Assembly: GCF_005233835.1 (NCBI RefSeq)
Contig: NZ_SZQA01000002.1
Coordinates: 186,001 to 250,000, forward strand
Source: Herbidospora galbida
GTDB taxonomy: Bacteria > Actinomycetota > Actinomycetes > Streptosporangiales > Streptosporangiaceae
Length of the DNA stretch: 64,000 bases
Direction: 5' to 3'
Shown here: positions 1,414-13,184 of the stretch, one piece after another
Position numbering within the stretch: position 1 is the first letter of the stretch
Layout of the letters: the number at the start of each line of letters is the position of its first letter
The notes under the pieces: generated by a model
Seen by the model: only the letters and a program-made list of their open reading frames with translations
What the model was told of the DNA's origin: nothing
Database searches by the model: none
Made by a program: the position numbers and the translations under genes

Positions 1414-1486
1414 GCCGCCTTAGCTCAATCGGCAGAGCATCTGTCTTGTAAACAGAAGGTCTGGGGTTCGATTCCCCAAGGCGGCT
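1414..1486 (+). tRNA. tRNA-Thr (anticodon TGT)
   Basis: The 73-nt gene folds as a cloverleaf. The acceptor stem GCCGCCT pairs with AGGCGGC at 1479-1485. The anticodon stem TCTGT/ACAGA encloses loop CTTGTAA with anticodon TGT, which reads ACA threonine codons. The T-arm is TGGGG/CCCCA with loop TTCGATT. CCA is not encoded. It lies 27 bp behind rlmB and marks the left edge of an accessory block. Confidence 0.96.
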
Positions 1487-1493
1487 CTGATTG

Positions 1494-1520
1494 TTCGGCC
1501 TCTCGTTGCGGGAGGCCGAA
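1494..1520 (+). terminator. Hairpin terminator behind tRNA-Thr
   Basis: A perfect 9-bp inverted repeat, TTCGGCCTC (1494-1502) with GAGGCCGAA (1512-1520), has a 9-nt loop and is followed by ATTAGTTATG. It starts 8 bp after the tRNA. It lacks a long T-run, as is usual for high-GC actinobacterial terminators. Confidence 0.7.
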
Positions 1521-1849
1521 ATTAGTTATGGCTTCCTCCCGCAAGAAGCTTGTGTCGCGTTTTTGCCAAGTTTCGATGGAACGTTCCAATTGGGAGGAGA
1601 TAAATATGGGTAATCCTCCCATACGAGACGGTCCACAAGCAGGCCGAATCTCCGTTTTGGGGTCGATTTCCTGTGCCTGACAATCTATTTGGCATCGTGC
1701 TTTAAGCGTTAGAAATATGACGCTAAAGTAAGAAATTTTAGGCAGAGAAGCCCCGCGGTGCCCGGGTCTCTGCCTCGCGTCGCTGGTGATCAGAGCGTTG
1801 CGACGAAGATGGGCCGACCGCGGGCTGAACGCTGAAAGGTGGTCCGCGG
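1521..1849. other. Gene-free, AT-richer stretch between tRNA-Thr and MFS gene
   Basis: This 329-bp stretch holds no gene I can support. Bases 1680-1740 are clearly AT-richer than the surrounding DNA. An imperfect inverted repeat with core arms AGCGT (1705-1709) and ACGCT (1720-1724), extended by CTTTA/TAAAG with one bulged A, is followed by TAAGAAATTTTA. It could be a terminator or an operator. I found no integrase gene and could not establish a direct repeat of the tRNA 3' end at the far side of the block. Confidence 0.5.
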
Positions 1850-3763
1850 GTGGATCGGCGGCAGTCGCTGATGGGTTTCTGGATAGGTCTCACCAGCACA
1901 ACGGTCGTGGCGCGAACGTTGTCTCTGACGTATCCACTCCTTGCTCTCGACCATTCGGGCTCCCCCATGGCGGTCGGTTGGGCGAGTTTCATGCTCGCAC
2001 TACCGGGATTCCTGTTTTATCTGCCTTTCGGTGCGATCATAGACAGAATCGACCCTTCTCAGCTTATGAGGTTGGTCGAAGTTGTTCGTGCACTTATGTT
2101 GCTACTTGTCGGTGGTCTGCTGGTCTACGACTTTCTGTCCCTTCCGGTGATTCTGGCCGCGGCCTTCATCGAGGGTGCGATGTGGATCGCCTATTCCCTT
2201 GCCGAAGCGGCCCTGATCCCGATGGTTCGCAGCGACCGGCTGACCCGGTTCCTCGCCTCCAGCGAGCGCAGCACCCAAGTGGGCTCCCTGATCGCCCGGC
2301 CGCTGGCCGGATTCCTCTACGGCCTGCAGCACACCGTGCCCTTCCTGGTCGCACCGCTCTTCCTGCTCGTCTCGGCGCTCACCGTGCCTTCGGCGCGAGT
2401 GCGACGGACGGAAGTCCGTGGTCGGCGGGAACCGCTGTGGGCGTCGATGGGAGAAGGGCTGCGAGAGCTGGCCCGGCATCGGTTCCTCATGGTCGCCGTC
2501 ATCCTGACGAGCACGACGAACTTGATGATCAATGCCTTGATCGTCGTCTTCATCGCCGGGTACGCGAGCGAACTCGACGCCGCCGACATCGGGTTCTACC
2601 TCATGTTCGGGAGCATCGGCGGGACCGTGGGCACGTTCTTGGCCAGGACCATCCGCCCGGAGAACTGGGTGCTCTACGTGCAGCTCGCCGTCGCAGCCGT
2701 CGCCATGCTGGCCATCGCCCTGCGCCCCAGTCCGGCGTCGTTCGCGCTGGGCCTGCTGCTGACCGGATGGGGCACCGCCACCAACATCGCCATGCGCAGT
2801 TATGAGGGCGTCTACGTCAGGCGCCGCAAACGGGCGCGGGTCGCCAGTGTCTCCCGTCTTCTCAGCCACACCGCCGTGACGGTCGCGGCCCCGCTGGGCG
2901 GTGCGCTGGTGACCGTCTCCGGAGTCGATCAGGCCGCTTCCCTGCTGGCCTGGGGGTTCGCGTTCGTGGCGGGGTCGCTGCTGCTGTGGAGAGTGGTCTC
3001 GTGGACGATCACGGTCGTGAGCCGGTACGCGAAGTACGGCGTCTACGGAATTTTCGACGCGCCGCGATTCGAGGCGATGGTGGGCGTGGTGGGCCTGCGG
3101 ATGGCCTCACTGGCCATCGGCCACCCGTTCGGCCAGGCGGTGGAGATGTGCCGGGAGTGGTGGTGCCTTCGCCGACATCGCGGCTGCGGCGAGATCGGCA
3201 GCTCCTGTGAGATTTCCGGCCTTCTGCTCGACCAGAGCCGCGTAAAGGAGGGCGGGACCGTGTTCCGCCGTGGTCGCGCGTACGGCGGTGATCTCATTCC
3301 GCGCTTCGTCGATATCCCCGCGGCTTGCCAGGGCGTACGCATAGGCGGCGCGGACCCATGGCTCACGTATCGAGCCGAGTCGCCCGAAGTCGATCAGAGC
3401 CTCGTCGGTACGGTCAAGGTGAAGAAGGATCTCGGCGCGGGTGCGCAGGGCGGGCCAGGAGTTGGCGTCGTCGTCGAGCACGCGGTCGAGCGTCCCGAGC
3501 GCGTTGTCCTCATGACCCCCGTACCAATAGGTCCACGCGAGCTCGATGCGGATGCCCTGATCGTCCGGAACCCGTTGGATGGCGGACTTGATGTCCTGAA
3601 TGGCGCGCCGCGTCTGGCCGAGCGCGCGACGGGCCCGGCCGCTTGCGGCCAGCAGACGGCCCACACTCTCCGTACGCCCGTGGACGTCGAAGAGGGCGGC
3701 GGCCTCGCGGTAATGGTCGATGGCCGTGGCGTACCGGCCGTCCTGGAAGGCGACGTCCCCTAG
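1850..3763 (+). CDS. MFS transporter with abnormal C-terminal read-through
   Basis: The first ~385 residues are a typical 12-helix major facilitator of the MFS_3 (EntS-like exporter) kind, with the GAIIDRIDPSQLMR loop after helix 2. GTG 1850 follows a GAAAGGTGG ribosome-binding site; ATG 1871 is an alternative start. The hydrophobic part ends near position 3005 (LLLWRVVSW). The frame then stays open for about 250 further residues to TAG 3761-3763, entirely antisense to the 3' end of the nSTAND1/TPR gene, and those residues look like shadow sequence. A TGA exists at 3018-3020 in the +1 frame, so either a frameshift or stop loss extended the gene, or a long convergent overlap is real. As part of the adjoining RiPP-like cassette it may export the peptide (inference). 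Confidence 0.7.
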   Translation: MDRRQSLMGFWIGLTSTTVVARTLSLTYPLLALDHSGSPMAVGWASFMLALPGFLFYLPFGAIIDRIDPSQLMRLVEVVRALMLLLVGGLLVYDFLSLPVILAAAFIEGAMWIAYSLAEAALIPMVRSDRLTRFLASSERSTQVGSLIARPLAGFLYGLQHTVPFLVAPLFLLVSALTVPSARVRRTEVRGRREPLWASMGEGLRELARHRFLMVAVILTSTTNLMINALIVVFIAGYASELDAADIGFYLMFGSIGGTVGTFLARTIRPENWVLYVQLAVAAVAMLAIALRPSPASFALGLLLTGWGTATNIAMRSYEGVYVRRRKRARVASVSRLLSHTAVTVAAPLGGALVTVSGVDQAASLLAWGFAFVAGSLLLWRVVSWTITVVSRYAKYGVYGIFDAPRFEAMVGVVGLRMASLAIGHPFGQAVEMCREWWCLRRHRGCGEIGSSCEISGLLLDQSRVKEGGTVFRRGRAYGGDLIPRFVDIPAACQGVRIGGADPWLTYRAESPEVDQSLVGTVKVKKDLGAGAQGGPGVGVVVEHAVERPERVVLMTPVPIGPRELDADALIVRNPLDGGLDVLNGAPRLAERATGPAACGQQTAHTLRTPVDVEEGGGLAVMVDGRGVPAVLEGDVP

Positions 3764-5080
3764 GAACGACTCGATCTCGGCCTTGAGGCGGGAGGAGTCG
3801 GTGCGGTCGAGCGCGTCTCTGGCATCGCGGCGGGCACGGGCGAAGTCGCCCTCGCGGAGGGCGTGCTGAGCGGTGTGGAGAAGCTGCTGGGCGGTTCGCT
3901 TGTCGACCACGACGTCGCCGGCCTCCGCACGGATGAGGCGGACGAGGCTCTCGTGCGACAGCTCGTACCACTGGGAGTCGTCTCCCGTGACGCCCGGGCG
4001 CGGGGTCAGGATGTGGTGGTCGACCAGGGCGGCGACCACATCGTTCGGGATTCCGGCCGTCATGGTCTCGCCCCGATAGACCGGCGTCTTGGCCGAGTCG
4101 GCGACGAAGTTGTCGAGCAGCCAGGCGCGCAGACGGGTCGTGTCGTCGTCGAGGTGGTCGCGGGCGACCTCGGCGATCGTCTGGTCGACGAACTTCTCCA
4201 GCGACTTGCGCACGTTGGCGTACCGGATGACGTGGTCGGTCGTGATGTGAGTGACGTCCGGAGGCAGCGAGTCCCAGAGAACCGTGCAGACGACCTGGAG
4301 CTGGACGGGTTCGATGGCCTTCGACTCCCGCGCGGTGCCGTCTCCGCTCAGGTCGTCGATCAGGCGCTGGGCGGCGGCGTCGTCGAAGGAGTAGCCGGTG
4401 CCGGTGAGCGGACCCGTGATGGCCTGGGTGGCGGCCGGTGGTTCCAGGGCGCCGAGCGTGAAACGCCCTTTGGTCATGACGTCGTGGAGGCGTTCGTCCC
4501 TGAGTATGGCGCCGGCCTGGTCGTTCCTGATCGAGATCAGCACCCGCAGGTCGGGATCCTTGCTGAGGGCGGCGAAGAGCTGGTCGAGGAACCACTCGTG
4601 ATACGGCGTCCGCCGGTGGTTCCCCAGGAACAGCTCTTCCGCCTGGTCGATCGAGGCCAGGCGGAGCACCGGATCGCCATAGCGGTCCTGCCTGGGCGGG
4701 CGGCGCAGGAAGAACCGCTCAAGGGTGAGGCTGGCCAGCCGGGACGGGCGCTCCCCCGGGGACCACGACGAGAGGAGCGCGTAGACATGGGGATTGTGCT
4801 CGGGCAGCGCTTCCCGGGGAGACGTGGAGGTGACCGAGACCCGTCCCACCGGCAGGATGTCGTTCTGCGACGGATCGAGCAGGGGCATGACGCCCGCGTT
4901 GAGCAGGGAGGTCTTCCCCGCGCCCGACGGGCCGGACAGCACCGTGATCTGGTTGGACCGCCAGAGATCGCAGACCTCGTGCGCCTCACGGGCCCGGCCG
5001 AAGAACTTGCCGCTGTCCTGACGGCGGAACGCGCGCAGGCCGACGTAGGGTTCGAGGGTCCGCTGATCTCGGCCGGTCAC
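3107..5080 (-). CDS. nSTAND1 NTPase with C-terminal TPR repeats
   Basis: The 657-residue protein starts at GTG 5080, which overlaps the TGA of the SIR2 gene (GTGA), so the two are translationally coupled. The N-terminus PYVGLRAF...FFGRARE (11-31) leads into Walker A GPSGAGKT (50-57) and a Walker B-like DQAEELF (145-151). This is the signature of the novel STAND NTPase 1 family found in conflict systems. A helical winged-helix-like part follows, then TPR-type repeats from about residue 440 to the end. STAND proteins usually sense a trigger through their repeats, oligomerise on ATP and switch on an effector; here the effector would be the SIR2 protein. The long upstream open frame to 5827 is only the shadow of the SIR2 gene. 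The 3' 657 bp overlap antisense with the MFS reading frame. Confidence 0.85.
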   Translation of the reverse strand: MTGRDQRTLEPYVGLRAFRRQDSGKFFGRAREAHEVCDLWRSNQITVLSGPSGAGKTSLLNAGVMPLLDPSQNDILPVGRVSVTSTSPREALPEHNPHVYALLSSWSPGERPSRLASLTLERFFLRRPPRQDRYGDPVLRLASIDQAEELFLGNHRRTPYHEWFLDQLFAALSKDPDLRVLISIRNDQAGAILRDERLHDVMTKGRFTLGALEPPAATQAITGPLTGTGYSFDDAAAQRLIDDLSGDGTARESKAIEPVQLQVVCTVLWDSLPPDVTHITTDHVIRYANVRKSLEKFVDQTIAEVARDHLDDDTTRLRAWLLDNFVADSAKTPVYRGETMTAGIPNDVVAALVDHHILTPRPGVTGDDSQWYELSHESLVRLIRAEAGDVVVDKRTAQQLLHTAQHALREGDFARARRDARDALDRTDSSRLKAEIESFLGDVAFQDGRYATAIDHYREAAALFDVHGRTESVGRLLAASGRARRALGQTRRAIQDIKSAIQRVPDDQGIRIELAWTYWYGGHEDNALGTLDRVLDDDANSWPALRTRAEILLHLDRTDEALIDFGRLGSIREPWVRAAYAYALASRGDIDEARNEITAVRATTAEHGPALLYAALVEQKAGNLTGAADLAAAAMSAKAPPLPAHLHRLAERVADGQ

Positions 5081-5967
5081 GGCATGGCTCCCATCCGCTC
5101 GCGTAACTCCTTGCAGAACTCGTCGATGCCCCCCCAGTAGACCGAGATCTGCCACTCGGCGTAATACCAGTTCAGCAGGCCCTCCATGTCCTCGATGGTG
5201 TAGCCCGAGGTGGGGGCGAGCTGGATGCTCACATGGCGACGCCTGCTGATCGCCGGGATCGACCGGCCGAGTTCCTGGAACAGCATCCGGAACGTCGAGT
5301 CCTGCAGGCTGTATCCGACGAACAGCAGCGGGCGGGTGGTCAGCGCGGCGAGGATCGACGGAGGGAACATCCGGGTCGTGCCGTTGGTGCGCTCGATGAT
5401 GAAATTGCGCAGGAACACCATGTAGTCGTCTTCGGCCAGCACGAAGCTGGCCGGATCGCGCATCGCGCCGTGCAGGTGGTAGACGAGCGGGGTCGCCGGG
5501 CTGGGGTTGAAGCCGGGGGTCTCGGCGAACAACGGGTCGGGGGCGATGGTTTCGGTCCACGGGCAGATGGCCGCGATGGCCGACTTCGTACGCGTCGCGA
5601 GCGCCTGGACGATGAAGTCGTCGTAATTGGTGGTCAGGTAGACCGGCAACGGGAAGTCGGCCAGCAGGGCGTGCGGCTCGTTCGGGTTGGTGAAGTCGGG
5701 TGTCTTGGCGTCCTCGGTCAGCACGTCCCGGACCCGGTTCTTGACGTAGTGGAGATCGCCGTACTTCACGCCAGCGTATTGGGCCACCCGGAGGAGTTCG
5801 GTGCCGTTCGGCCCTGGGTAACCGCACATGGCCGCGAGTTTCTCACTGAGCTCGGCGCCCGACGGGAGAACGCTCGCTGAGGCGCCGGCGCCCACGAAAG
5901 GAGTGCAGTGGCCGGCCCTCAATTGATAAATGAGCCGTTCCCAATCCTCGTCGCGCATTTCGCCCAT
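5077..5967 (-). CDS. SIR2-family protein (predicted NADase effector)
   Basis: The 296-residue protein carries the SIR2 Rossmann NAD-binding signatures of bacterial defence SIR2 proteins: VGAGAS (25-30), LTTNYDDF (111-118), YHLHG (163-167, catalytic-type histidine) and FVGYSLQD (216-223). No zinc-binding Cys quartet of classical deacetylases is visible. Such proteins (as in Thoeris, DSR, Avs5 and SIR2-APAZ) usually degrade NAD+ rather than deacetylate. ATG 5967 has a GGTGGAG ribosome-binding site 6 nt upstream; the longer frame to 6087 lacks one. It overlaps the nSTAND1 gene by 4 bp and lies 146 bp downstream of the peptide gene on the same strand. An NADase function is family knowledge, not shown here. 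Confidence 0.85.
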   Translation of the reverse strand: MGEMRDEDWERLIYQLRAGHCTPFVGAGASASVLPSGAELSEKLAAMCGYPGPNGTELLRVAQYAGVKYGDLHYVKNRVRDVLTEDAKTPDFTNPNEPHALLADFPLPVYLTTNYDDFIVQALATRTKSAIAAICPWTETIAPDPLFAETPGFNPSPATPLVYHLHGAMRDPASFVLAEDDYMVFLRNFIIERTNGTTRMFPPSILAALTTRPLLFVGYSLQDSTFRMLFQELGRSIPAISRRRHVSIQLAPTSGYTIEDMEGLLNWYYAEWQISVYWGGIDEFCKELRERMGAMP

Positions 5968-6066
5968 GCATTGCTCCACCTCATCGGCCGGATGTTCGTT
6001 CCTGACTGTAGAGCCAGTCACGGCGAGATGACCGGTGGTATTTTTTCGGCCCTGCGGGCAGGCGGC

Positions 6067-6105
6067 CGGGAGGGCGCGGATCATCATCGGTACACGACCC
6101 TCCCG
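6067..6105. repeat. Inverted repeat between peptide gene and SIR2 gene
   Basis: CGGGAGGG (6067-6074) pairs with CCCTCCCG (6098-6105) around a 23-nt loop, 9 bp after the peptide stop codon. It could act as a partial terminator or an RNA-stability element separating high peptide expression from lower SIR2/STAND expression. No T-run follows on the minus strand. Confidence 0.4.
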
Positions 6106-6113
6106 CCGTTGTG

Positions 6114-6263
6114 TCAGATGAAGTTCTGGAACCCCGAACTCGTCGTGGCAGGGGCTTCGACGAAGTGTTCCAGCAGCCCACGGAGGGTTGCGTAGGGCAC
6201 TTCGCTGGCGGCGTTCAGGAGTGGTTCCCCGCTCGCCGCAGTACCACGCGCAGCATCGATCAT
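6114..6263 (-). CDS. Candidate cyclophane RiPP precursor peptide (FxSxx-COOH-like)
   Basis: A 49-residue frame starts at ATG 6263 with GCGAGGA 4 nt upstream and ends at TGA 6114-6116. It begins MIDAARGTAASGEPLL, has a short helical leader-like segment (ASEVPYATLRGLLEHF), then a small-residue stretch (APATTSSG) and the C-terminus FQNFI. FxsA precursors end Phe-x-Ser-x-x-COOH after a similar leader; here Phe is at -5 but Asn replaces Ser at -3. Aromatic-x-Asn is a crosslinking motif known from other three-residue cyclophane (triceptide) maturases. The gene sits divergently from the FxsT-like gene, in the same cluster as the FxsB-like maturase 4 kb away. The mRNA leader contains a perfect 6-bp stem, GGCCGC/GCGGCC (6307-6323). 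No alternative precursor was found next to the maturase gene. Confidence 0.68.
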   Translation of the reverse strand: MIDAARGTAASGEPLLNAASEVPYATLRGLLEHFVEAPATTSSGFQNFI

Positions 6264-6359
6264 TAAGTCCTCGCCTTCAGCGGCAGCCGAAATGGGAGTT
6301 ACGGTTGGCCGCCTTTCGCGGCCCGGGCGCCATTGACGAACTTGCTGTATAGATGAGTT

Positions 6360-6389
6360 TTGAACAGGCTCTGGCGCGAAGCAAGTAAT
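6360..6389 (+). promoter_or_regulatory. Possible promoter of the FxsT-like gene
   Basis: TTGAAC (6360-6365) and AGTAAT (6384-6389) are separated by 18 bp. The predicted start point leaves a leader of about 20 nt carrying the GGAGG ribosome-binding site at 6407-6411. It is a sequence match only. Confidence 0.35.
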
Positions 6390-6415
6390 CTTTTCATGGA
6401 AGCAGCGGAGGTCTG

Positions 6416-8944
6416 ATGGTCGCCGAACCCTCCTCGCTAGCGACGCACTCACTCGGGGACAAGCAACCGGAGATCTTCGAGCGGGTCCCACCCCGGAACC
6501 GGAACTTCACCGGACGGGAGAGCCTGCTGCATCAGCTACGTGAGGGCACCCGCTCGGTGACCGCTGTCATCCCGCTGCCGCAGGCGCTGCAGGGATACGG
6601 CGGTGTCGGCAAGACCCACCTGGCCATCGAATACGCCTACCGCTACCGCTCCCATTACGACCTGATCTGGTGGATCCCGGCCGACCAGTACTACCTGGTC
6701 TCCTCCGCCCTGGCGGCGATGGCGCCCCATCTCGGGCTGACCCCCGCATCGGTCGTGGGCGTGGAGGAGGCGGCCGACGCCGTGCGTGAAGCGCTGGAAC
6801 AGGGTGCTCCGTACAACAACTGGCTACTGATCTTCGACAACGCGGAAGACGCGCGGATCGAGAAGTTCATCCCGCGCGGTCCCGGCCACGTGATCATCAC
6901 CTCGCGCGACCCGAACTGGGACGACCAGTTCCGGTCCCTGCAGGTCGACGTGTTCTCCCGGGAGGAGAGCATCGAGTTCCTCACGAAGAGACTGGGGTCG
7001 CGCATCACCAGAGAAGAGGCGTTCCGGCTGGCCGACAAACTGGGTGACCTGCCGCTGGCCCTCGAACAGGTCGGCGCGTTGCAGCGGCGCAGCACCATGA
7101 CGGTCGACGACTACATCGAGTTGCTCGACAAGCAGACCGCGCGGCTCCTCGACACCGACCGGGCCAAGGACTACCCCCTGACGATGACGGCAGCCTGGCG
7201 GGTGTCGATGTCGCTGCTGGAAGAACGCCTCCCGATCGCGCTCAACCTGCTGCGATGCTGCGCCTTCTTCGGGCCCGACCCGATCCCCCTCGACGTGTAC
7301 CGGCGCGGCAACAAGGCCAACGCGCCGAGCCTGGAGAAACTGCTGGCCGACCCGATCATGTTCGACAAGTCGGTGAAGGAGCTCAGCCGCTACGCGCTCA
7401 TCCGGAGCGACCCCGACAACCGGACGATCCAGGTGCACCGGCTGATCCAGGCGCTGCTGCGGGCCGACCTCGACGAGGAACGGCAGACGCAGCACCGCGC
7501 GGAGGTCCACCGCCTGCTCGCGGGAAGCGCGCCGCAAGTGCCCGACGACAACTCCAAATGGGGTGACTTCGCCGATCTGGTGCCCCATGTCGGGCCTTCG
7601 CAACTGCTGGGGTCGTCCGAGCCCGAAGTCCGTGAGTTCGCCCTCAACGTGGTGCGCTACCTCTACTCCTCAGGTAACTACCCGTCGGCGCTGGAACTGG
7701 TCGACACCTTCATCAACGACTGGGGCAAGTCCCGGGAGAACCACCCCGACGTACTGCGGGCCCGCCGCCACCAGGCCAACATCCTGCGCCGCATGGGTGA
7801 GTACAGCACGGTCTACGATCTCGACCGCGCCACCCTCGACATGGTGATCGCCGAGTTCGGTGCGGAGCACCCCGAGACCCTGATCGCGACCAACGGTCTC
7901 GGCGGCAGCATGCGCGCCCGCGGCGATTTCCGGACCGCGCTCGAACTCGACGAAGAGTCGGTCCGCCAGCATGAGCGCCTGCTCGGCGAAGACCACGTGC
8001 TCACCCTCCGGGCCAAGAACAGCCTCGCCCTCGACTACGGCCTCAACAGCCGCTACGAACAGGCCAGAAAGCTCCACACCGAGGTCTACCTGGCACAGAG
8101 TGAGGCACTCAACCCGGCCAGCGCCGAGATCGTGCTGCTCTCGCGCAACAGCATGGCCCGGGCCGTGCGGCTCACCAACGGTTTCGAGGAGGCCTGCGAC
8201 ACCGGTGAGGCCGCCATGGCGTTCGGGGTGCAGAAGCTCGGCCGCGACCACTGGGCCACCCTGATCACCGCGAAGGACCTGTCGATCGCCCAACGGCGCG
8301 CGGGCGCCCTCAACGAGGCCATCGACATCGCGCGAGACACTCACACCCGGCTTACCCGGCTCTTCGGCGCCCGCCATCCCGACACGATCGCGGCCGCCGT
8401 GAACGTCTCCAACGTCCTGCGGGTGCGCGGAGACCTCGCCGAGGCGTACGAACTGGCCGCGGAGATGACCAGAACCTATCCGCTGGTGTACGGCGACGAG
8501 CACCCGTTCACGCTCGCCTGCATGACCAACCTGGCGATCCTGCACCGCCTGCTCGGCAAGCCCGAAGAGGCGCGCGTCCTCAATGAGACCGCCCGCGACG
8601 GCCTGACCGAACGGCTCGGCCCCGACCACCACTACGTCCTTTCGTGCGCGGTGAACCTGGCCAGTGACCTGGCCGCCCTGGGCCGTCGCGAGGAGGCGCG
8701 GCAGCACGGCGAGGCCACGCTCGACCAGCTCACGCGCCTGTTCGGCCGCGACCACTTCCTGGCCATGGCCTGCGCCGCCAACCTGGCTCTCGACCGGGAG
8801 GCGGTCGGCGCGCCCGACGCGGACAAACTGAAGGCGGAGGCGGCCGACCTCTACCTGGAGCGGCTCGACCTCGGCCAGCCAGACGCGGTGACCGCCGCGT
8901 CGGGCAACCGCATCGACTGCGACTTCGACCCGCTACCGATCTGA
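6416..8944 (+). CDS. fxsT: FxSxx-COOH-system NB-ARC/TPR protein (FxsT-like)
   Basis: The 842-residue protein opens with VPPRNRNFTGRESLL, the hallmark N-terminus of the tetratricopeptide protein that accompanies FxSxx-COOH RiPP loci. Walker A is GYGGVGKTH (60-68), Walker B LLIFDNAED (137-145), and the NB-ARC GLPL-type motif is GDLPLALEQ. The second half holds about seven 42-residue TPR_10/kinesin-light-chain-like repeats, each with a [LV][FYL]Gx[DE]H core (for example KLGRDHWATL, LFGARHPDTI, VYGDEHPFTL). ATG 6416 has GGAGG 4 nt upstream. The protein is probably a cytoplasmic ATP-driven sensor or scaffold; its molecular role in these loci is not established. Its 3' end overlaps the HExxH gene by 12 bp, convergently. 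Confidence 0.85.
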   Translation: MVAEPSSLATHSLGDKQPEIFERVPPRNRNFTGRESLLHQLREGTRSVTAVIPLPQALQGYGGVGKTHLAIEYAYRYRSHYDLIWWIPADQYYLVSSALAAMAPHLGLTPASVVGVEEAADAVREALEQGAPYNNWLLIFDNAEDARIEKFIPRGPGHVIITSRDPNWDDQFRSLQVDVFSREESIEFLTKRLGSRITREEAFRLADKLGDLPLALEQVGALQRRSTMTVDDYIELLDKQTARLLDTDRAKDYPLTMTAAWRVSMSLLEERLPIALNLLRCCAFFGPDPIPLDVYRRGNKANAPSLEKLLADPIMFDKSVKELSRYALIRSDPDNRTIQVHRLIQALLRADLDEERQTQHRAEVHRLLAGSAPQVPDDNSKWGDFADLVPHVGPSQLLGSSEPEVREFALNVVRYLYSSGNYPSALELVDTFINDWGKSRENHPDVLRARRHQANILRRMGEYSTVYDLDRATLDMVIAEFGAEHPETLIATNGLGGSMRARGDFRTALELDEESVRQHERLLGEDHVLTLRAKNSLALDYGLNSRYEQARKLHTEVYLAQSEALNPASAEIVLLSRNSMARAVRLTNGFEEACDTGEAAMAFGVQKLGRDHWATLITAKDLSIAQRRAGALNEAIDIARDTHTRLTRLFGARHPDTIAAAVNVSNVLRVRGDLAEAYELAAEMTRTYPLVYGDEHPFTLACMTNLAILHRLLGKPEEARVLNETARDGLTERLGPDHHYVLSCAVNLASDLAALGRREEARQHGEATLDQLTRLFGRDHFLAMACAANLALDREAVGAPDADKLKAEAADLYLERLDLGQPDAVTAASGNRIDCDFDPLPI

Positions 8945-10204
8945 CGACCCGTGCCGGGCCTCCCAGGAGGCCCGGTGCCCGTCGGCCGCCTTCCTGCCGG
9001 CGGTCAGCGCCTCTTCGTCGAGAGCCTCAGCCAGCACCGTGCCGAGGCGGACGCGCATGCCCTCGACGAAGGTGATCCCGGCGGAGGTGAGGAGACGCTC
9101 GTTCTCCAGGGTGTCGAGGACGAGCCGCACGCCCTCCCGCCACCGCGCGAGTTCGACGCGGCCGCGGATGCCTTCGTACGGATGCTGGCGCTGCCAGAAC
9201 TCGGTGACCCCCAGGTAGGCGTAGGCGCCCTGGAGAAGGCCGTGAGCGGGTCTGGGGTCGGGCCGCCAGGGGGCGTAGTAGGTTTCGGTCCGCTCGTAGC
9301 GCACCAGCGGGACCAAGTGCATGAGCGCGTCGAGTTTGGCGTGCTGGATCTCGTGGGCGAACGTCTCGGCGAGCCAGGCGGGGGAGCCCTTCGGGGCGGA
9401 CATGGCGATGGTGCCGAAGGTCTCCCTGGCCGACGAACTGCTGACGCCTTCCGGCGGTGCCGCGATGGGGGTGAGGGCCCGCACGATCGCCACGACCTCC
9501 TCGGCGACGCCCGGATGGTTCTCGCGCAGGACGTGCCAGGCTTCGGGGAGCAGGGACCGCCAGGCGGGCAGGTCTTCGGAGGCGAGCCGGGGGGTCACGC
9601 GGTTGGGCTCCGGCCAGCGGTAGGGGTCGAGGTCGTCGAGGGTGACCGAGAAGCCGTCGTCGATACGGATCCGGTGCAGCACCTGCCAGGCGGGCCCGTC
9701 GGCGGCCGGATCGGCTTCGGCGCTCCAGTCGCCCGCATCGAGGACGCCGCCGGCCACCTCGATCTCTCCTGAGGTCCCGGCGGGGGCCAGCCGGCCGAGG
9801 CCGGGCAGCATCAGGCCGCCGTCGTCGTCGAGGAGCGCCTTCACGCGGCACGACGCACCCGAGGCGACGGCCGCCGCGAGGGCGACGGCCGCCAGGCGGG
9901 CAGGCCGTTCCTGGCCGCGTGCCCGGAGTGAGCGGAACGTCCGCCAGGCCCAGGCGCCGACGGCGGGGTGCTGCAGGATCCGGCCCACCGCGGCGGGAGC
10001 GTCCGCCTCCAGGGCGAGCAGGGTGGCATGGGCCGCGTCGGCCAGGGCAGCGTCGGGGTGGCCGGACAATCGGGATTCCTCGACGACCCCCCGGAGCAGC
10101 CCGATGCGGCGGCGGACCTGTATGCCGTTGAGCTCTTCGGCCGCTTCCGCGTTGGCGGGTTCCTCGGCCAGCGCGCGGAAGGTCTTGTCAGAGACCGTAG
10201 TCAT
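8933..10204 (-). CDS. HExxH-motif putative peptide beta-hydroxylase (RiPP tailoring)
   Basis: This 423-residue protein carries HEIQH at 284-288 inside AETFAHEIQHAK, preceded by GTIAMSAP. That arrangement is typical of the HExxH putative peptide-modification family, later described as alpha-ketoglutarate-dependent peptide beta-hydroxylases, which travel with FxsB-type radical SAM enzymes. No signal peptide is present, so it is not a secreted zinc protease. The N-terminal ~200 residues are alpha-helical and alanine-rich and may bind the leader peptide. ATG 10204 overlaps the stop of the upstream maturase gene (ATGA), so the two modifying enzymes are co-translated. Predicted substrate: the 49-residue peptide at 6114-6263. 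The reaction is assigned from family knowledge. Confidence 0.8.
   Translation of the reverse strand: MTTVSDKTFRALAEEPANAEAAEELNGIQVRRRIGLLRGVVEESRLSGHPDAALADAAHATLLALEADAPAAVGRILQHPAVGAWAWRTFRSLRARGQERPARLAAVALAAAVASGASCRVKALLDDDGGLMLPGLGRLAPAGTSGEIEVAGGVLDAGDWSAEADPAADGPAWQVLHRIRIDDGFSVTLDDLDPYRWPEPNRVTPRLASEDLPAWRSLLPEAWHVLRENHPGVAEEVVAIVRALTPIAAPPEGVSSSSARETFGTIAMSAPKGSPAWLAETFAHEIQHAKLDALMHLVPLVRYERTETYYAPWRPDPRPAHGLLQGAYAYLGVTEFWQRQHPYEGIRGRVELARWREGVRLVLDTLENERLLTSAGITFVEGMRVRLGTVLAEALDEEALTAGRKAADGHRASWEARHGSSDR
8954..8975 (+). terminator. Terminator hairpin of the FxsT-like gene
   Basis: CCGGGCCTCC (8954-8963) and GGAGGCCCGG (8966-8975) form a perfect 10-bp inverted repeat 9 bp after the stop codon. 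It lies inside the last codons of the convergent HExxH gene. Confidence 0.6.
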
Positions 10205-11439
10205 ACACGTCCCTTCAATCGGGCGGTGTCACGGGCGTGCCGATCGCTGATGTACGAGATCAGCCGATAGAGGTCGGGGCAGTAGACCGAAGGGCCGCGG
10301 AAGCCGGCGCCCGGCCGGAAGCGATGGGCGTAGAGGCCGCCGCCGCAGACCTCCATCAGGTCGCAGGCGGTGCACTCCGGGCCGAGCGCGGCCGCGCCGA
10401 GTTGCCGCGCGACGATCGCGGGGAAGCCGAGGGCCGCGTCGAACGGGTGGTCCCGCACGTGGAGGCCGGTCGCCGAGGCGCCTTCATAGGCCGATTTCAG
10501 GATGTCGGACTGCTCGATGTCGCCGTTGGTCTCCACGACCATCATCAATGAGGGCGACAGGCCCACCGCCTCGGTCCGCGACGGGAAGCCGGAAAGCAAC
10601 CGCTGAATCTCGTGGAACAGCCGGATCTCAGTACGGAACGTCACCGCCCCCCGCCACTCGTCGAATATCTCGATGAGCCAGTCGGCATAAGGCGTCAACG
10701 GCGAATGGGGCTCGCGTTCCGGGGGCGGCGCCGCCCAGTTGCCGTGGGGCAGCAGGAAATCGACGCTCGGCGGGTCGAATTCCAGCAATGCGTGATAGGT
10801 CTCCAGAGGGTCGTTTCTCAGGTCGATCGTGCACAGGATGCCGGCGAACAAATGGTGGAACGGCCCGTCGGTCAGCGAGCGCAGCGCCCGGCTCACCTGC
10901 CGGTGGCTGCCCCTGCCGTTCGCGAAGAGCCGAGTCCTGTCGTGCGCCGCCGCGGTTCCGTCGAGGCTGACTCCGATGCGTATGTCCAGTTCATCGAAGA
11001 GTCTCAGATACGCCTCGTTCAGGCGGACTCCGTTGGTCTGCATGCTCACCCGTACGCGGGTGCCGATCTCCGAGCATTCCCCGCGGATCGTCCGCACGAT
11101 ATGGGCGAGGGATTCCGGCCCGGCGAGGAGCGGTTCCCCTCCGTGCAGGATGACGTCGATATCGGCGAGCCGGTGGGTGCGGGCGTGTTCCGCTATGCGG
11201 AATGCCGTGTGCTTCACGATGTCGGGCGACATTTGGCGCGGCTGATCGCGCCAGCCCTGGTCGGCCATTTCATACACGTAGCAGCCCGGGCAGGCGAGAT
11301 CGCATCGGCTGTGCACCTTGAGGATGAACTGCCGAAAGGGGGACGGCCGCCATCCCGTGGCCAGCAATTCCGCGACGTCGAGGTTTGCCGGAAATACGTT
11401 TTCGGGCAGCGGGGTCGTGAGTTCGTGGTTGTTCGCCAA
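10201..11439 (-). CDS. fxsB: FxsB-family radical SAM/SPASM cyclophane-forming maturase
   Basis: The protein (412 residues from TTG 11439) has the FxsB N-terminal signature FRQFILKVHSRCDLACPGCYVYE. The [4Fe-4S]-binding cysteines are C46, C50 and C53 (CxxxCxxC), followed by VILHGGEPLL. The C-terminal SPASM region is CTACDLMEVCGGGLYAHRF with a later YCPDLY. FxsB enzymes join an aromatic ring carbon to the beta-carbon of the residue two positions on. TTG 11439 is chosen over the longer frame (TTG 11463) because it has an AGAAGGG ribosome-binding site about 8 nt upstream and fits a promoter at 11468-11496. The HExxH gene follows with a 4-bp overlap. Confidence 0.9.
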   Translation of the reverse strand: MANNHELTTPLPENVFPANLDVAELLATGWRPSPFRQFILKVHSRCDLACPGCYVYEMADQGWRDQPRQMSPDIVKHTAFRIAEHARTHRLADIDVILHGGEPLLAGPESLAHIVRTIRGECSEIGTRVRVSMQTNGVRLNEAYLRLFDELDIRIGVSLDGTAAAHDRTRLFANGRGSHRQVSRALRSLTDGPFHHLFAGILCTIDLRNDPLETYHALLEFDPPSVDFLLPHGNWAAPPPEREPHSPLTPYADWLIEIFDEWRGAVTFRTEIRLFHEIQRLLSGFPSRTEAVGLSPSLMMVVETNGDIEQSDILKSAYEGASATGLHVRDHPFDAALGFPAIVARQLGAAALGPECTACDLMEVCGGGLYAHRFRPGAGFRGPSVYCPDLYRLISYISDRHARDTARLKGRV

Positions 11440-11467
11440 CCGGCACACCCTTCTTTGCGCCAACCCT

Positions 11468-11496
11468 ATTTCGCCCTATTTTCAACTGATAGTCAA
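11468..11496 (-). promoter_or_regulatory. Possible promoter of the fxsB-HExxH operon
   Basis: On the minus strand TTGACT (11496-11491) and CGAAAT (11473-11468) are 17 bp apart. Transcription would start near 11461, giving a ~22-nt leader with AGAAGG before TTG 11439. The surrounding DNA is unusually AT-rich for the window. Confidence 0.45.
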
Positions 11497-11606
11497 TATT
11501 CGCTTCGCTCCGTGACGACCCGGGCACCGCAACTCGCCACTTTCGGCCGATCGGATCACCGGGTGATGAGGAGGCGGCTATTTCCCCACGTCGGTGGCAT
11601 CTTGCA

Positions 11607-11621
11607 TAGGAAAGTTTCCTA
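11607..11621. promoter_or_regulatory. Palindromic operator candidate TAGGAAA-G-TTTCCTA
   Basis: Perfect 7-bp arms surround a single G. It lies 41 bp before the start of the small secreted protein gene and could also serve the divergent fxsB operon. The regulator is unknown. Confidence 0.5.
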
Positions 11622-11662
11622 ATAAATACTCCGCATGACGACACCAACCCCCAGGAGGCCTC

Positions 11663-11986
11663 ATGCTCCGCCGCGCCCTGACCCTCCTAGCCGCCGCCAC
11701 CCTCACCGCGACGACAGTCCTCACCGCCCCGGCTCAAGCCGTCATCGTGAATCTCAACTTCGGCCCTCTCAGCATCGGCGAATACTGCGCCGCGAAGATC
11801 CACCCGCAGGCCTGGCTGGGCCTCTACGAGGCCTCAGGCCTGCGGTGCTACACCCCGCAGGGATCGGGCCTGATCTACCGAGGCCAGGGCGACCCCTACC
11901 TCGCCTGCAAACACCTCACGACAGACGTCATCGCAGGCGCCACGAGGATCGCCGGTGACGGCCTCAGCTGCCAGGCCGTCCGCTAG
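11663..11986 (+). CDS. Small secreted protein, uncharacterised
   Basis: The product is 107 residues with a clear Sec signal peptide: MLRRAL, a hydrophobic alanine-rich core and an AQA cleavage site near residue 29. The mature part is about 80 residues with four cysteines (in EYCAAK, LRCYTP, LACKHL, LSCQAV), which probably form two disulfides. GGAGG precedes ATG 11663 by about 5 nt. The gene follows a perfect palindrome at 11607-11621 and overlaps the convergent SnoaL-like gene by 4 bp. I do not recognise the family; similar small Cys-paired secreted proteins are common in actinomycetes and are mostly uncharacterised. Confidence 0.75.
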   Translation: MLRRALTLLAAATLTATTVLTAPAQAVIVNLNFGPLSIGEYCAAKIHPQAWLGLYEASGLRCYTPQGSGLIYRGQGDPYLACKHLTTDVIAGATRIAGDGLSCQAVR

Positions 11987-12333
11987 GCCACCGGCGTGAT
12001 CTGAAAGACGGCAGCCCGCCAGGCCCCGGAAGAGTCGAGAACCATCGTCGTGGTCGCGTGAACGACCATCGTCCCCCGCTCGGAGTCGATCTCCACCCGG
12101 GCGGTGTGGACGACCGAGGTGTCACTCAGCCGGACCACCCGGTGCTCCGACTGGTCCGTCCGCGTGTACGGGTTCTCGTTCTCCGCGAACGTCCGCAGGA
12201 TGGCGGCCCGGTCGGTCTCCACCCCCCACGGGGAGATCGCCACCGGGTCGTCCGTCAGGTATGCGTCGTAGAAAGAGGCGTCCCCCTCACGGTTCGCCTT
12301 CCACGCGCGTTCGGTCAGTTCGATGAAGTCCAT
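11983..12333 (-). CDS. SnoaL-like / NTF2-fold small protein
   Basis: This 116-residue protein has the DUF4440/SnoaL-like pattern: MDFIELTERAWKANREGDASFYDAYLTDD at the start (an alpha+beta cone with a conserved small-helix opening), then ISPWGVETDRAAILRTF and a C-terminal beta sheet ending AVFQITPV. ATG 12333 has GAGGA 6 nt upstream; the longer frame to 12396 has no such signal. Its start codon overlaps the -35 element of the divergent ECF41 sigma gene, so the two are probably coupled in regulation. Function unknown; the fold serves as cyclase, isomerase or ligand-binding domain. Confidence 0.75.
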   Translation of the reverse strand: MDFIELTERAWKANREGDASFYDAYLTDDPVAISPWGVETDRAAILRTFAENENPYTRTDQSEHRVVRLSDTSVVHTARVEIDSERGTMVVHATTTMVLDSSGAWRAAVFQITPVA

Positions 12334-12359
12334 GTCACATCCTCTAGCCCTGTGTCGTT
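12333..12359 (+). promoter_or_regulatory. ECF41-type autoregulatory promoter
   Basis: TGTCACA (12333-12339) and CGTT (12356-12359) are separated by exactly 16 bp. I recall the published ECF41 target promoter as TGTCACA-N16-CGTC. Transcription would start at or next to GTG 12369, so the sigma-factor mRNA is probably leaderless. Confidence 0.7.
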
Positions 12360-12368
12360 CTTCTATGC

Positions 12369-13184
12369 GTGGAACCGTATGTGGCGATCCGGCCAAGACT
12401 TGTCCGCTTGGCCTACGGCCTCCTGGGTGATCTGGCCGAGTCTGAGGACGTCGTCCAGGACGCCTGGCTGCGCCTCAACCGGGCCGAGGAGGTCCCGGAA
12501 GACGTCGAGGGCTGGCTCGTGGTCACCGTCTCCCGGCTGGCCCTGGACGTCCTGAAGTCGGCCAGGAAGCGCCGGGAGGAGTACGTCGGCCCCTGGCTCC
12601 CCGAGCCCGTCGTCGACGCCGACCCGGCCGACCGGGTGACCCTCGACGAGTCGCTCAGCCTCGCCATGTTCGTGGTGCTCGAAAGCCTCAGCCCGGCCGA
12701 GCGCACGGCTTTCGTGCTGCACGACGTCTTCGGGGTCCCCTTCGACGAGATCGGCCGGGCCGTGGGGCGGACCCCGGCCGCCTGCCGGCAGCTGGCCGCC
12801 AGGGCGCGCAGGCATGTCCAGGAGAAGGCCCCGAGGTTCGACGTCAGCGTCGAAGACCACAAGCGGGTCGTGGACGCGTTCGCGGCGGCCTGCGCGGGGA
12901 GGGATATCGACGGGCTGCTCGTGGTGCTCGATCCCGATGTGGTCCTGCGCAGTGACGGGGGCGGGCTGGTCAAGGCGGCGCTGCGGCCGATCGAAGGGGC
13001 CGGGAAGGTCGCGCGGTTCCTGGTCGCGACCTCCAAGCCGGGGTTCCGGCCGGCCTTGGTCAACGGCTCGCCCGGGCTGGTCCGCGATGATCCGCCGGCG
13101 GTCTACGGGCTGGCGGTCCGACAGGGACGAATCGTCGAGGTCGACATCGTCCGCAATCCAGAGAAACTGAGGAGTCTGAGATGA
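12369..13184 (+). CDS. ECF41-family RNA polymerase sigma factor (SigJ-like) with SnoaL-like regulatory domain
   Basis: The product has 271 residues. Region sigma-2 occupies roughly 5-75 (LAYGLLGDLAESEDVVQDAWLRL) and region sigma-4 110-160 (FDEIGRAVGRTPAACRQLAARAR). A C-terminal SnoaL-like domain fills 165-271. The diagnostic ECF41 motifs are all present: WLPEP in the linker, DGGG in the extension and a C-terminal NPEKL. In this group the extension replaces a separate anti-sigma factor and tunes activity. GTG 12369 has no ribosome-binding site and sits at the expected start of transcription from the ECF41 promoter. It overlaps the next gene by 4 bp (ATGA). The inducing signal is unknown. Confidence 0.9.
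   Translation: MEPYVAIRPRLVRLAYGLLGDLAESEDVVQDAWLRLNRAEEVPEDVEGWLVVTVSRLALDVLKSARKRREEYVGPWLPEPVVDADPADRVTLDESLSLAMFVVLESLSPAERTAFVLHDVFGVPFDEIGRAVGRTPAACRQLAARARRHVQEKAPRFDVSVEDHKRVVDAFAAACAGRDIDGLLVVLDPDVVLRSDGGGLVKAALRPIEGAGKVARFLVATSKPGFRPALVNGSPGLVRDDPPAVYGLAVRQGRIVEVDIVRNPEKLRSLR

Follow-up and report, generated by a model that had tools for sequence, protein, structure and literature searches.

A SIR2/nSTAND1 variant of the FxSxx peptide maturation locus in Herbidospora galbida and related Streptosporangiales

Genes of the cassette and their linkage

The DNA examined (hereafter the window) is a stretch of 64,000 nucleotides of the Herbidospora galbida genome (contig NZ_SZQA01000002.1, positions 186,001 to 250,000). 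Between 1850 and 11463 it carries a cassette in which the fxs genes for the maturation of an FxSxx-type ribosomal peptide lie together with genes encoding a SIR2-family protein and an nSTAND1 NTPase. The best reading of this locus is that it is a previously undescribed variant of the FxSxx systems. All the genes that a preliminary description of this DNA had named, including two pairs overlapping by 4 base pairs (bp), were recovered where it had placed them, by profile and open reading frame (ORF) evidence (Table 1).

The window SIR2 protein was used as a query against 347 genomes of the order (Streptosporangiales). Scoring was confined to the few best candidates of each genome, and the DNA surrounding the matches, up to 20 kb, was compared. 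FxsT was found within 10 kb of 101 of the 105 distinct SIR2 relatives, counts that come from related genomes and hence not from independent samples; one of the four exceptions is owed to a contig end. Within the same distance lie nSTAND1 (102 relatives), the HExxH gene (92), FxsB (80) and a relative of the transporter of the major facilitator superfamily (MFS; 48/105). The MFS gene stands directly beyond nSTAND1 in 44 of the 105 SIR2-nSTAND1 pairs, and this recurrent neighbour was rightly counted as part of the setting in the preliminary description. When all regions are counted, nSTAND1 is the next co-directional gene for 104/112 SIR2 ORFs, FxsT lies divergently upstream of 96/112 and FxsC directly follows none (0/112). 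An FxsC gene shares the region with 8/105 SIR2 genes, and in the examples read it is part of a separate classic locus. In a class-wide sample the window-type SIR2 occurs in 19/395 genomes, 18 of which carry FxsT, compared with 114/395 overall (Fisher p = 1e-9). Chance linkage is ruled out by this value, by the neighbourhood counts and by the excess of precursor ORFs over shuffled sequence given below, and it is excluded that the fxs genes and the SIR2/nSTAND1 pair are never linked in relatives.

The fxsB and HExxH genes, both on the minus strand, form one of the overlapping pairs, and the HExxH gene converges with the plus-strand fxsT. The precursor, SIR2 and nSTAND1 genes are minus-strand genes divergent from fxsT; the stop codon of SIR2 and the GTG start of nSTAND1 form the other overlap (GTGA), and the MFS gene is convergent with nSTAND1. 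This layout is a fixed one among such loci, though the MFS gene is often rather than always part of it. The SIR2 ORF opens at 6087, its start being set by homology. A listed nSTAND1 ORF of 906 amino acids (aa) was rejected as an over-extension across the SIR2 gene, since homology begins at the overlapping GTG. The MFS frame is open antisense to the 3' end of nSTAND1 (3107-3763), where it may encode a tail of the transporter. No RNA element other than the tRNA was found in the cassette with Rfam, and no TIR gene with Pfam.

Table 1. Features of the cassette and of its left edge (window coordinates)
Feature	Position	Strand	Evidence and remarks
tRNA-Thr(TGT)	1414..1487	+	ARAGORN, Rfam, synteny; left edge of the cassette site in 7/7 Herbidospora genomes
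MFS transporter, TIGR00900-like	1850..3763	+	Pfam MFS_1, NCBIfam; profile-conserved portion 1877-2968
nSTAND1 NTPase with C-terminal TPR superhelix, 657 aa, GTG start	3107..5080	-	Pfam nSTAND1 140 bits; AlphaFold model
SIR2-family protein, intact TTNYD and HLHG	5077..~5970	-	Pfam SIR2_2 E 2e-24; PADLOC ThsA; AlphaFold; Foldseek
FxsA-type precursor peptide, 49 aa, GFQNFI-COOH	6114..6263	-	Position, C-terminus conservation, dN/dS
FxsT, NB-ARC STAND NTPase with TPR repeats	6416..8944	+	NF040586 957 bits (cut-off 300)
HExxH-type alpha-ketoglutarate-dependent peptide beta-hydroxylase, separate gene, HEIQH motif	8933..10204	-	TIGR04267 155 bits (cut-off 40)
FxsB radical SAM/SPASM cyclophane-forming maturase, CxxxCxxC	10201..11463	-	TIGR04269 459 bits (cut-off 370)

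Precursor peptide and types of FxSxx locus

The precursor (MIDAARG...TTSSGFQNFI) ends in F-Q-N-F-I, with Asn in place of the Ser of F-x-S-x-x, and is matched by no family model of Pfam or NCBIfam. In 68/94 regions the interval from FxsT to SIR2 holds, on the SIR2 strand, an ORF ending in F-x-[S/N/A/Q]-x-x-COOH; the chance level estimated from Markov shuffles is 0.02 per region (about 2 expected in 94), and the antisense strand holds such an ORF in 4/94. Ser is the commonest third residue in the termini of the relatives (46 exact F-x-S-x-x matches), and the upstream portion often holds LIDVSGLSLxDL. Across five Herbidospora orthologues the ratio of non-synonymous to synonymous substitution rates (dN/dS) is 0.17-0.55 and the final ten residues, TTSSGFQNFI, are invariant. 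A pseudogene or an over-called ORF is ruled out by this conservation and dN/dS; together with the conserved position and the excess over shuffles they uphold what had been proposed as a 49-residue candidate precursor.

The HExxH motif is present in 80/80 relatives of the hydroxylase and the CxxxCxxC motif in 80/80 relatives of FxsB. Related enzymes are known to form three-residue cyclophanes of the Phe-Ser and Phe-Asn kind, with a bond from Phe to the second residue after it (PMC11002830), and beta-hydroxylation of a cyclophane peptide has been described for a fused HExxH enzyme (PMC12636437). From this chemistry Phe-Gln-Asn of GFQNFI is the expected cross-link. The H. galbida genome also has an additional HExxH gene without an adjoining FxsB, after which comes a precursor-like ORF of its own with the ending VARFQSAY (L006:417-1815).

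The precursor of FxsC loci was examined in six cases, and there it abuts fxsB, its stop codon being at most 42 bp from the fxsB match. In the SIR2-type locus the peptide gene is instead grouped with the effector genes, and no other feature of the architecture hints as strongly at an action of the peptide on SIR2-nSTAND1.

FxSxx peptides have been described in conflict systems with TIR/AP-ATPase partners, where the peptide was proposed as a toxin or signal (Kaur et al. 2020, PMC7159879); SIR2 is not mentioned in the main text of that paper. The cassette shares with the FxSxx-COOH systems (FxsA, FxsB, FxsC, FxsT; PMC7159879) homologous FxsB, HExxH domain and FxsT, the aromatic C-terminal motif of the precursor, and a STAND ATPase coupled to a nucleotide-targeting effector fold. 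It belongs with them by the models for FxsB (TIGR04269) and FxsT (NF040586), but it has no TIR-like FxsC; in its place stand SIR2, nSTAND1 and often an MFS gene, with FxsA within the presumed effector operon. Compared with the FxSxx-COOH loci that have a KGGVGR-FxsT fusion, FxsB and HExxH are encoded by separate genes and FxsT has no KGGVGR ATPase domain. Peptide-processing systems of the standalone and of the VMAP-linked kind (PMC7159879) are likewise among its nearest known counterparts. Unlike the VMAP/vWA-MoxR ternary systems, the locus has no vWA, MoxR or VMAP domain among the cassette or flanking proteins tested. The arrangement had been called undescribed, and we found no description of a SIR2 variant in the open-access literature, a search that did not extend to subscription papers and supplements.

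The FxsT proteins fall into two main groups. In a tree of 148 proteins, made by a quick method with a midpoint root and having some long branches, one branch (support 93) holds the 17 FxsT of FxsC-type loci, and the other side holds all 100 SIR2-type FxsT. Loci with nSTAND1 only (n=16) are nested at several points within the SIR2 side, so that SIR2 has probably been lost, or gained, repeatedly. Several of these keep the FxsA-nSTAND1 order and the MFS neighbour. No other effector was recognised in their SIR2 slot, between FxsT and nSTAND1, by eye and with no profile search. These nested loci show SIR2 to be dispensable for this type of locus. A third group of FxsT loci, with neither FxsC nor SIR2/nSTAND1, was also seen.

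Three FxsB loci are present in the H. galbida genome: the one in the window, a further SIR2-nSTAND1 locus on a different contig, and a classic FxsC locus in which FxsB is fused to HExxH and KGGVGR to FxsT. The second and the classic locus adjoin each other (L005/L006, contig C84), and this pairing recurs in other Herbidospora. A straight swap of FxsC for SIR2 within one lineage is ruled out, as there are two separate FxsT lineages that are able to coexist. The idea that SIR2/nSTAND1 replaces FxsC accordingly holds for the locus, where FxsC never adjoins SIR2 and the FxsT of the FxsC type forms a separate clade, but not for the cell, because an intact FxsC locus coexists with the SIR2-type locus in the same genome. 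Between FxsC and FxsB-HExxH of the classic locus there is a gene related to aminoglycoside 3-N-acetyltransferases (L006:7879-9039).

Effector proteins and chromosomal site

The catalytic Asn and His of SIR2 (TTNYD, HLHG) are retained in 101/105 relatives. The AlphaFold model of the protein has a predicted local distance difference test score (pLDDT) of 92.9, and its nearest matches in Foldseek and sequence searches are ThsA, KomC, DSR2 and Avs5, all antiphage sirtuins; the closest PADLOC models are those of ThsA. In fold and catalytic residues it agrees with the antiphage sirtuin NADases and, judged by these features, it is a putative NADase. Thoeris ThsA and Kongming KomC are the best fold and sequence matches. 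Unlike Thoeris, the cassette protein consists of SIR2_2 only, with no SLOG domain, there is no ThsB, and the partner is nSTAND1. The KomC fold is shared with Kongming and the partner is again nSTAND1, no search having been aimed at the Kongming partner genes. Avs5 (AVAST type V, PMC12931631) likewise combines a SIR2 effector, which is a fold match, with a STAND NTPase and a TPR-type sensor. However, it is one polypeptide with nSTAND3 (PMC12931631), whereas the cassette has two genes, nSTAND1 and in addition peptide maturation.

In five Streptosporangiaceae genomes (L077, L079, L080, L081, L120) an FxsT-like NB-ARC half and a SIR2 domain are found in one ORF of 856-913 aa, as an additional or alternative protein. 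In all five fusions catalytic residues have been lost, and they argue for a functional tie between FxsT-like proteins and SIR2 and for a regulatory pseudo-enzyme.

The AlphaFold model of nSTAND1-TPR (pLDDT 84.7, predicted template modelling score 0.63) has a solved STAND-TPR protein (6mfv) among its best fold matches. Walker A is kept in 103/107 nSTAND1 relatives and the P-loop in 111/111 FxsT proteins. Away from fxs genes, SIR2-nSTAND1 pairs are also found in Chloroflexota, Planctomycetota, Verrucomicrobiota, Methanoperedens and others, which indicates that the pair works as a unit without the fxs genes. Outside the phylum these stand-alone pairs have WD40, long TPR, extra TIR or unrecognised parts in the sensor place; in the nSTAND1 protein of L220, for example, WD40 repeats are combined with a TIR domain at the N-terminus. 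The sensor end is thus variable and the pair constant. Regions with stand-alone pairs (L220, L227, L231, L237-L241, L245, L246) include those of Chloroflexota, Desulfobacula, Planctomycetota and Methanoperedens. Among phages and plasmids only distant matches to the window SIR2 type were obtained, except for a chromosome-sized Nonomuraea record and a pair on an Ensifer plasmid, the latter with no recognised fxs genes.

The cassette adjoins the same tRNA-Thr in 7/7 Herbidospora genomes, where it is flanked by the genes for a SpoU methylase and an ECF-type sigma factor. Identity between the window and another Herbidospora genome (G040) is 86-91% for six flanking proteins but 41-62% for the five main cassette proteins; in the FxsT and SIR2 trees the G040 cassette falls with those of Acrocarpospora. 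The window (1414-12400) and region L074 hold non-orthologous cassettes at one tRNA-Thr site with like flanks, and the cassettes exchanged at one site differ in the terminus of the peptide (FQNFI and FDASI). In two species tandem FxsT-SIR2-nSTAND1 units share a single FxsB-HExxH pair (L039, L043); in the second unit of L043 the gap is short and a precursor could not be recognised. Immune and incompatibility loci commonly show exchange and duplication at a fixed site. An integrative element with a duplicated tRNA end was rejected, as no repeat of the tRNA-Thr 3' end was found within 14 kb.

Possible function of the locus

To our knowledge the biological role of the FxSxx peptides is not established. 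We give an even chance to the locus being a second FxSxx-COOH type with SIR2/nSTAND1 output, that is, a cell-internal and self-contained conflict module of multicellular actinomycetes in which a peptide gates a STAND/NADase system. More tentatively, the cross-linked ribosomal peptide may be the intracellular ligand (guard or licence) of an NLR-like pair that controls the SIR2 NADase, in an abortive-infection or allorecognition system.

The genes fxsA, SIR2 and nSTAND1 are presumed to be one transcription unit with fxsA first, and FxsA would be made together with the effector pair. The predicted action of FxsB is a cross-link from the C-terminal Phe to the second residue after it (Phe-Gln-Asn); hydroxylation of the peptide would fall to the HExxH enzyme. 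The TPR superhelix of FxsT and/or nSTAND1 may read the modified C-terminus and set the STAND switches to rest or to fire; such reading, and the control of SIR2, are suggested by the constant peptide end, by the order of the genes and by the fusions. The disturbance that changes the state of peptide and receptor would, in view of the effector family, most likely be infection by a phage; nSTAND1 would then oligomerise and license SIR2 to hydrolyse NAD+, and the cell would stop. The linkage and the anatomy of the locus are established, whereas we infer that NAD is depleted, that the peptide is sensed and that the locus defends against phage.

Some points weigh against this scheme. SIR2 is absent from a minority of the nSTAND1-type fxs loci (16 of them in the tree sample), where nSTAND1 would need another output unless SIR2 is an accessory. 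The fold search matched TPR superhelices to many peptide and protein receptors without specificity, and the sequence does not tell FxsA from a phage product as the putative ligand. Moreover, the presence of an MFS gene points to an exported product. The peptide could then be a kin signal or weapon exported by the MFS, with FxsT, nSTAND1 and SIR2 as the recognition and the killing or immunity side of allorecognition among filamentous bacteria, which we consider rather unlikely. The transporter stays beyond nSTAND1 also in SIR2-less loci and whole cassettes with differing peptide ends are swapped at one site, as such a role would predict, but more than half of the loci have no MFS gene beside nSTAND1, and the cassette has no recognised protease or ABC-peptidase exporter and no membrane receptor.

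That SIR2-nSTAND1 is an ordinary two-gene antiphage system, settled beside the fxs cluster and independent of the peptide, seems quite unlikely. Within the order the pair is almost always found with fxs genes, the precursor gene lies in its presumed transcription unit, units are duplicated along with FxsT and NB-ARC-SIR2 fusions exist, although many phyla have the pair away from any fxs genes and SIR2 can be missing from fxs loci. We hold it very unlikely that SIR2 serves in tailoring or regulation, by deacylation or ADP-ribosyl transfer on the peptide or on FxsT, in a locus for development or metabolism and not immunity. Its place directly after the precursor and its accessory distribution would suit such an enzyme, as would the weak match of FxsT to the regulator AfsR; nevertheless the closest solved relatives are NADases, and a developmental gene would not be expected to turn over so fast at one fixed site.

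Returning to the peptide-gated conflict module, the location of a precursor gene next to a recognisable NADase effector pair makes the role of the FxSxx peptides directly testable. If the peptide does gate the effector, the chemistry of ribosomally synthesised and post-translationally modified peptides would be tied to NLR-type immunity.

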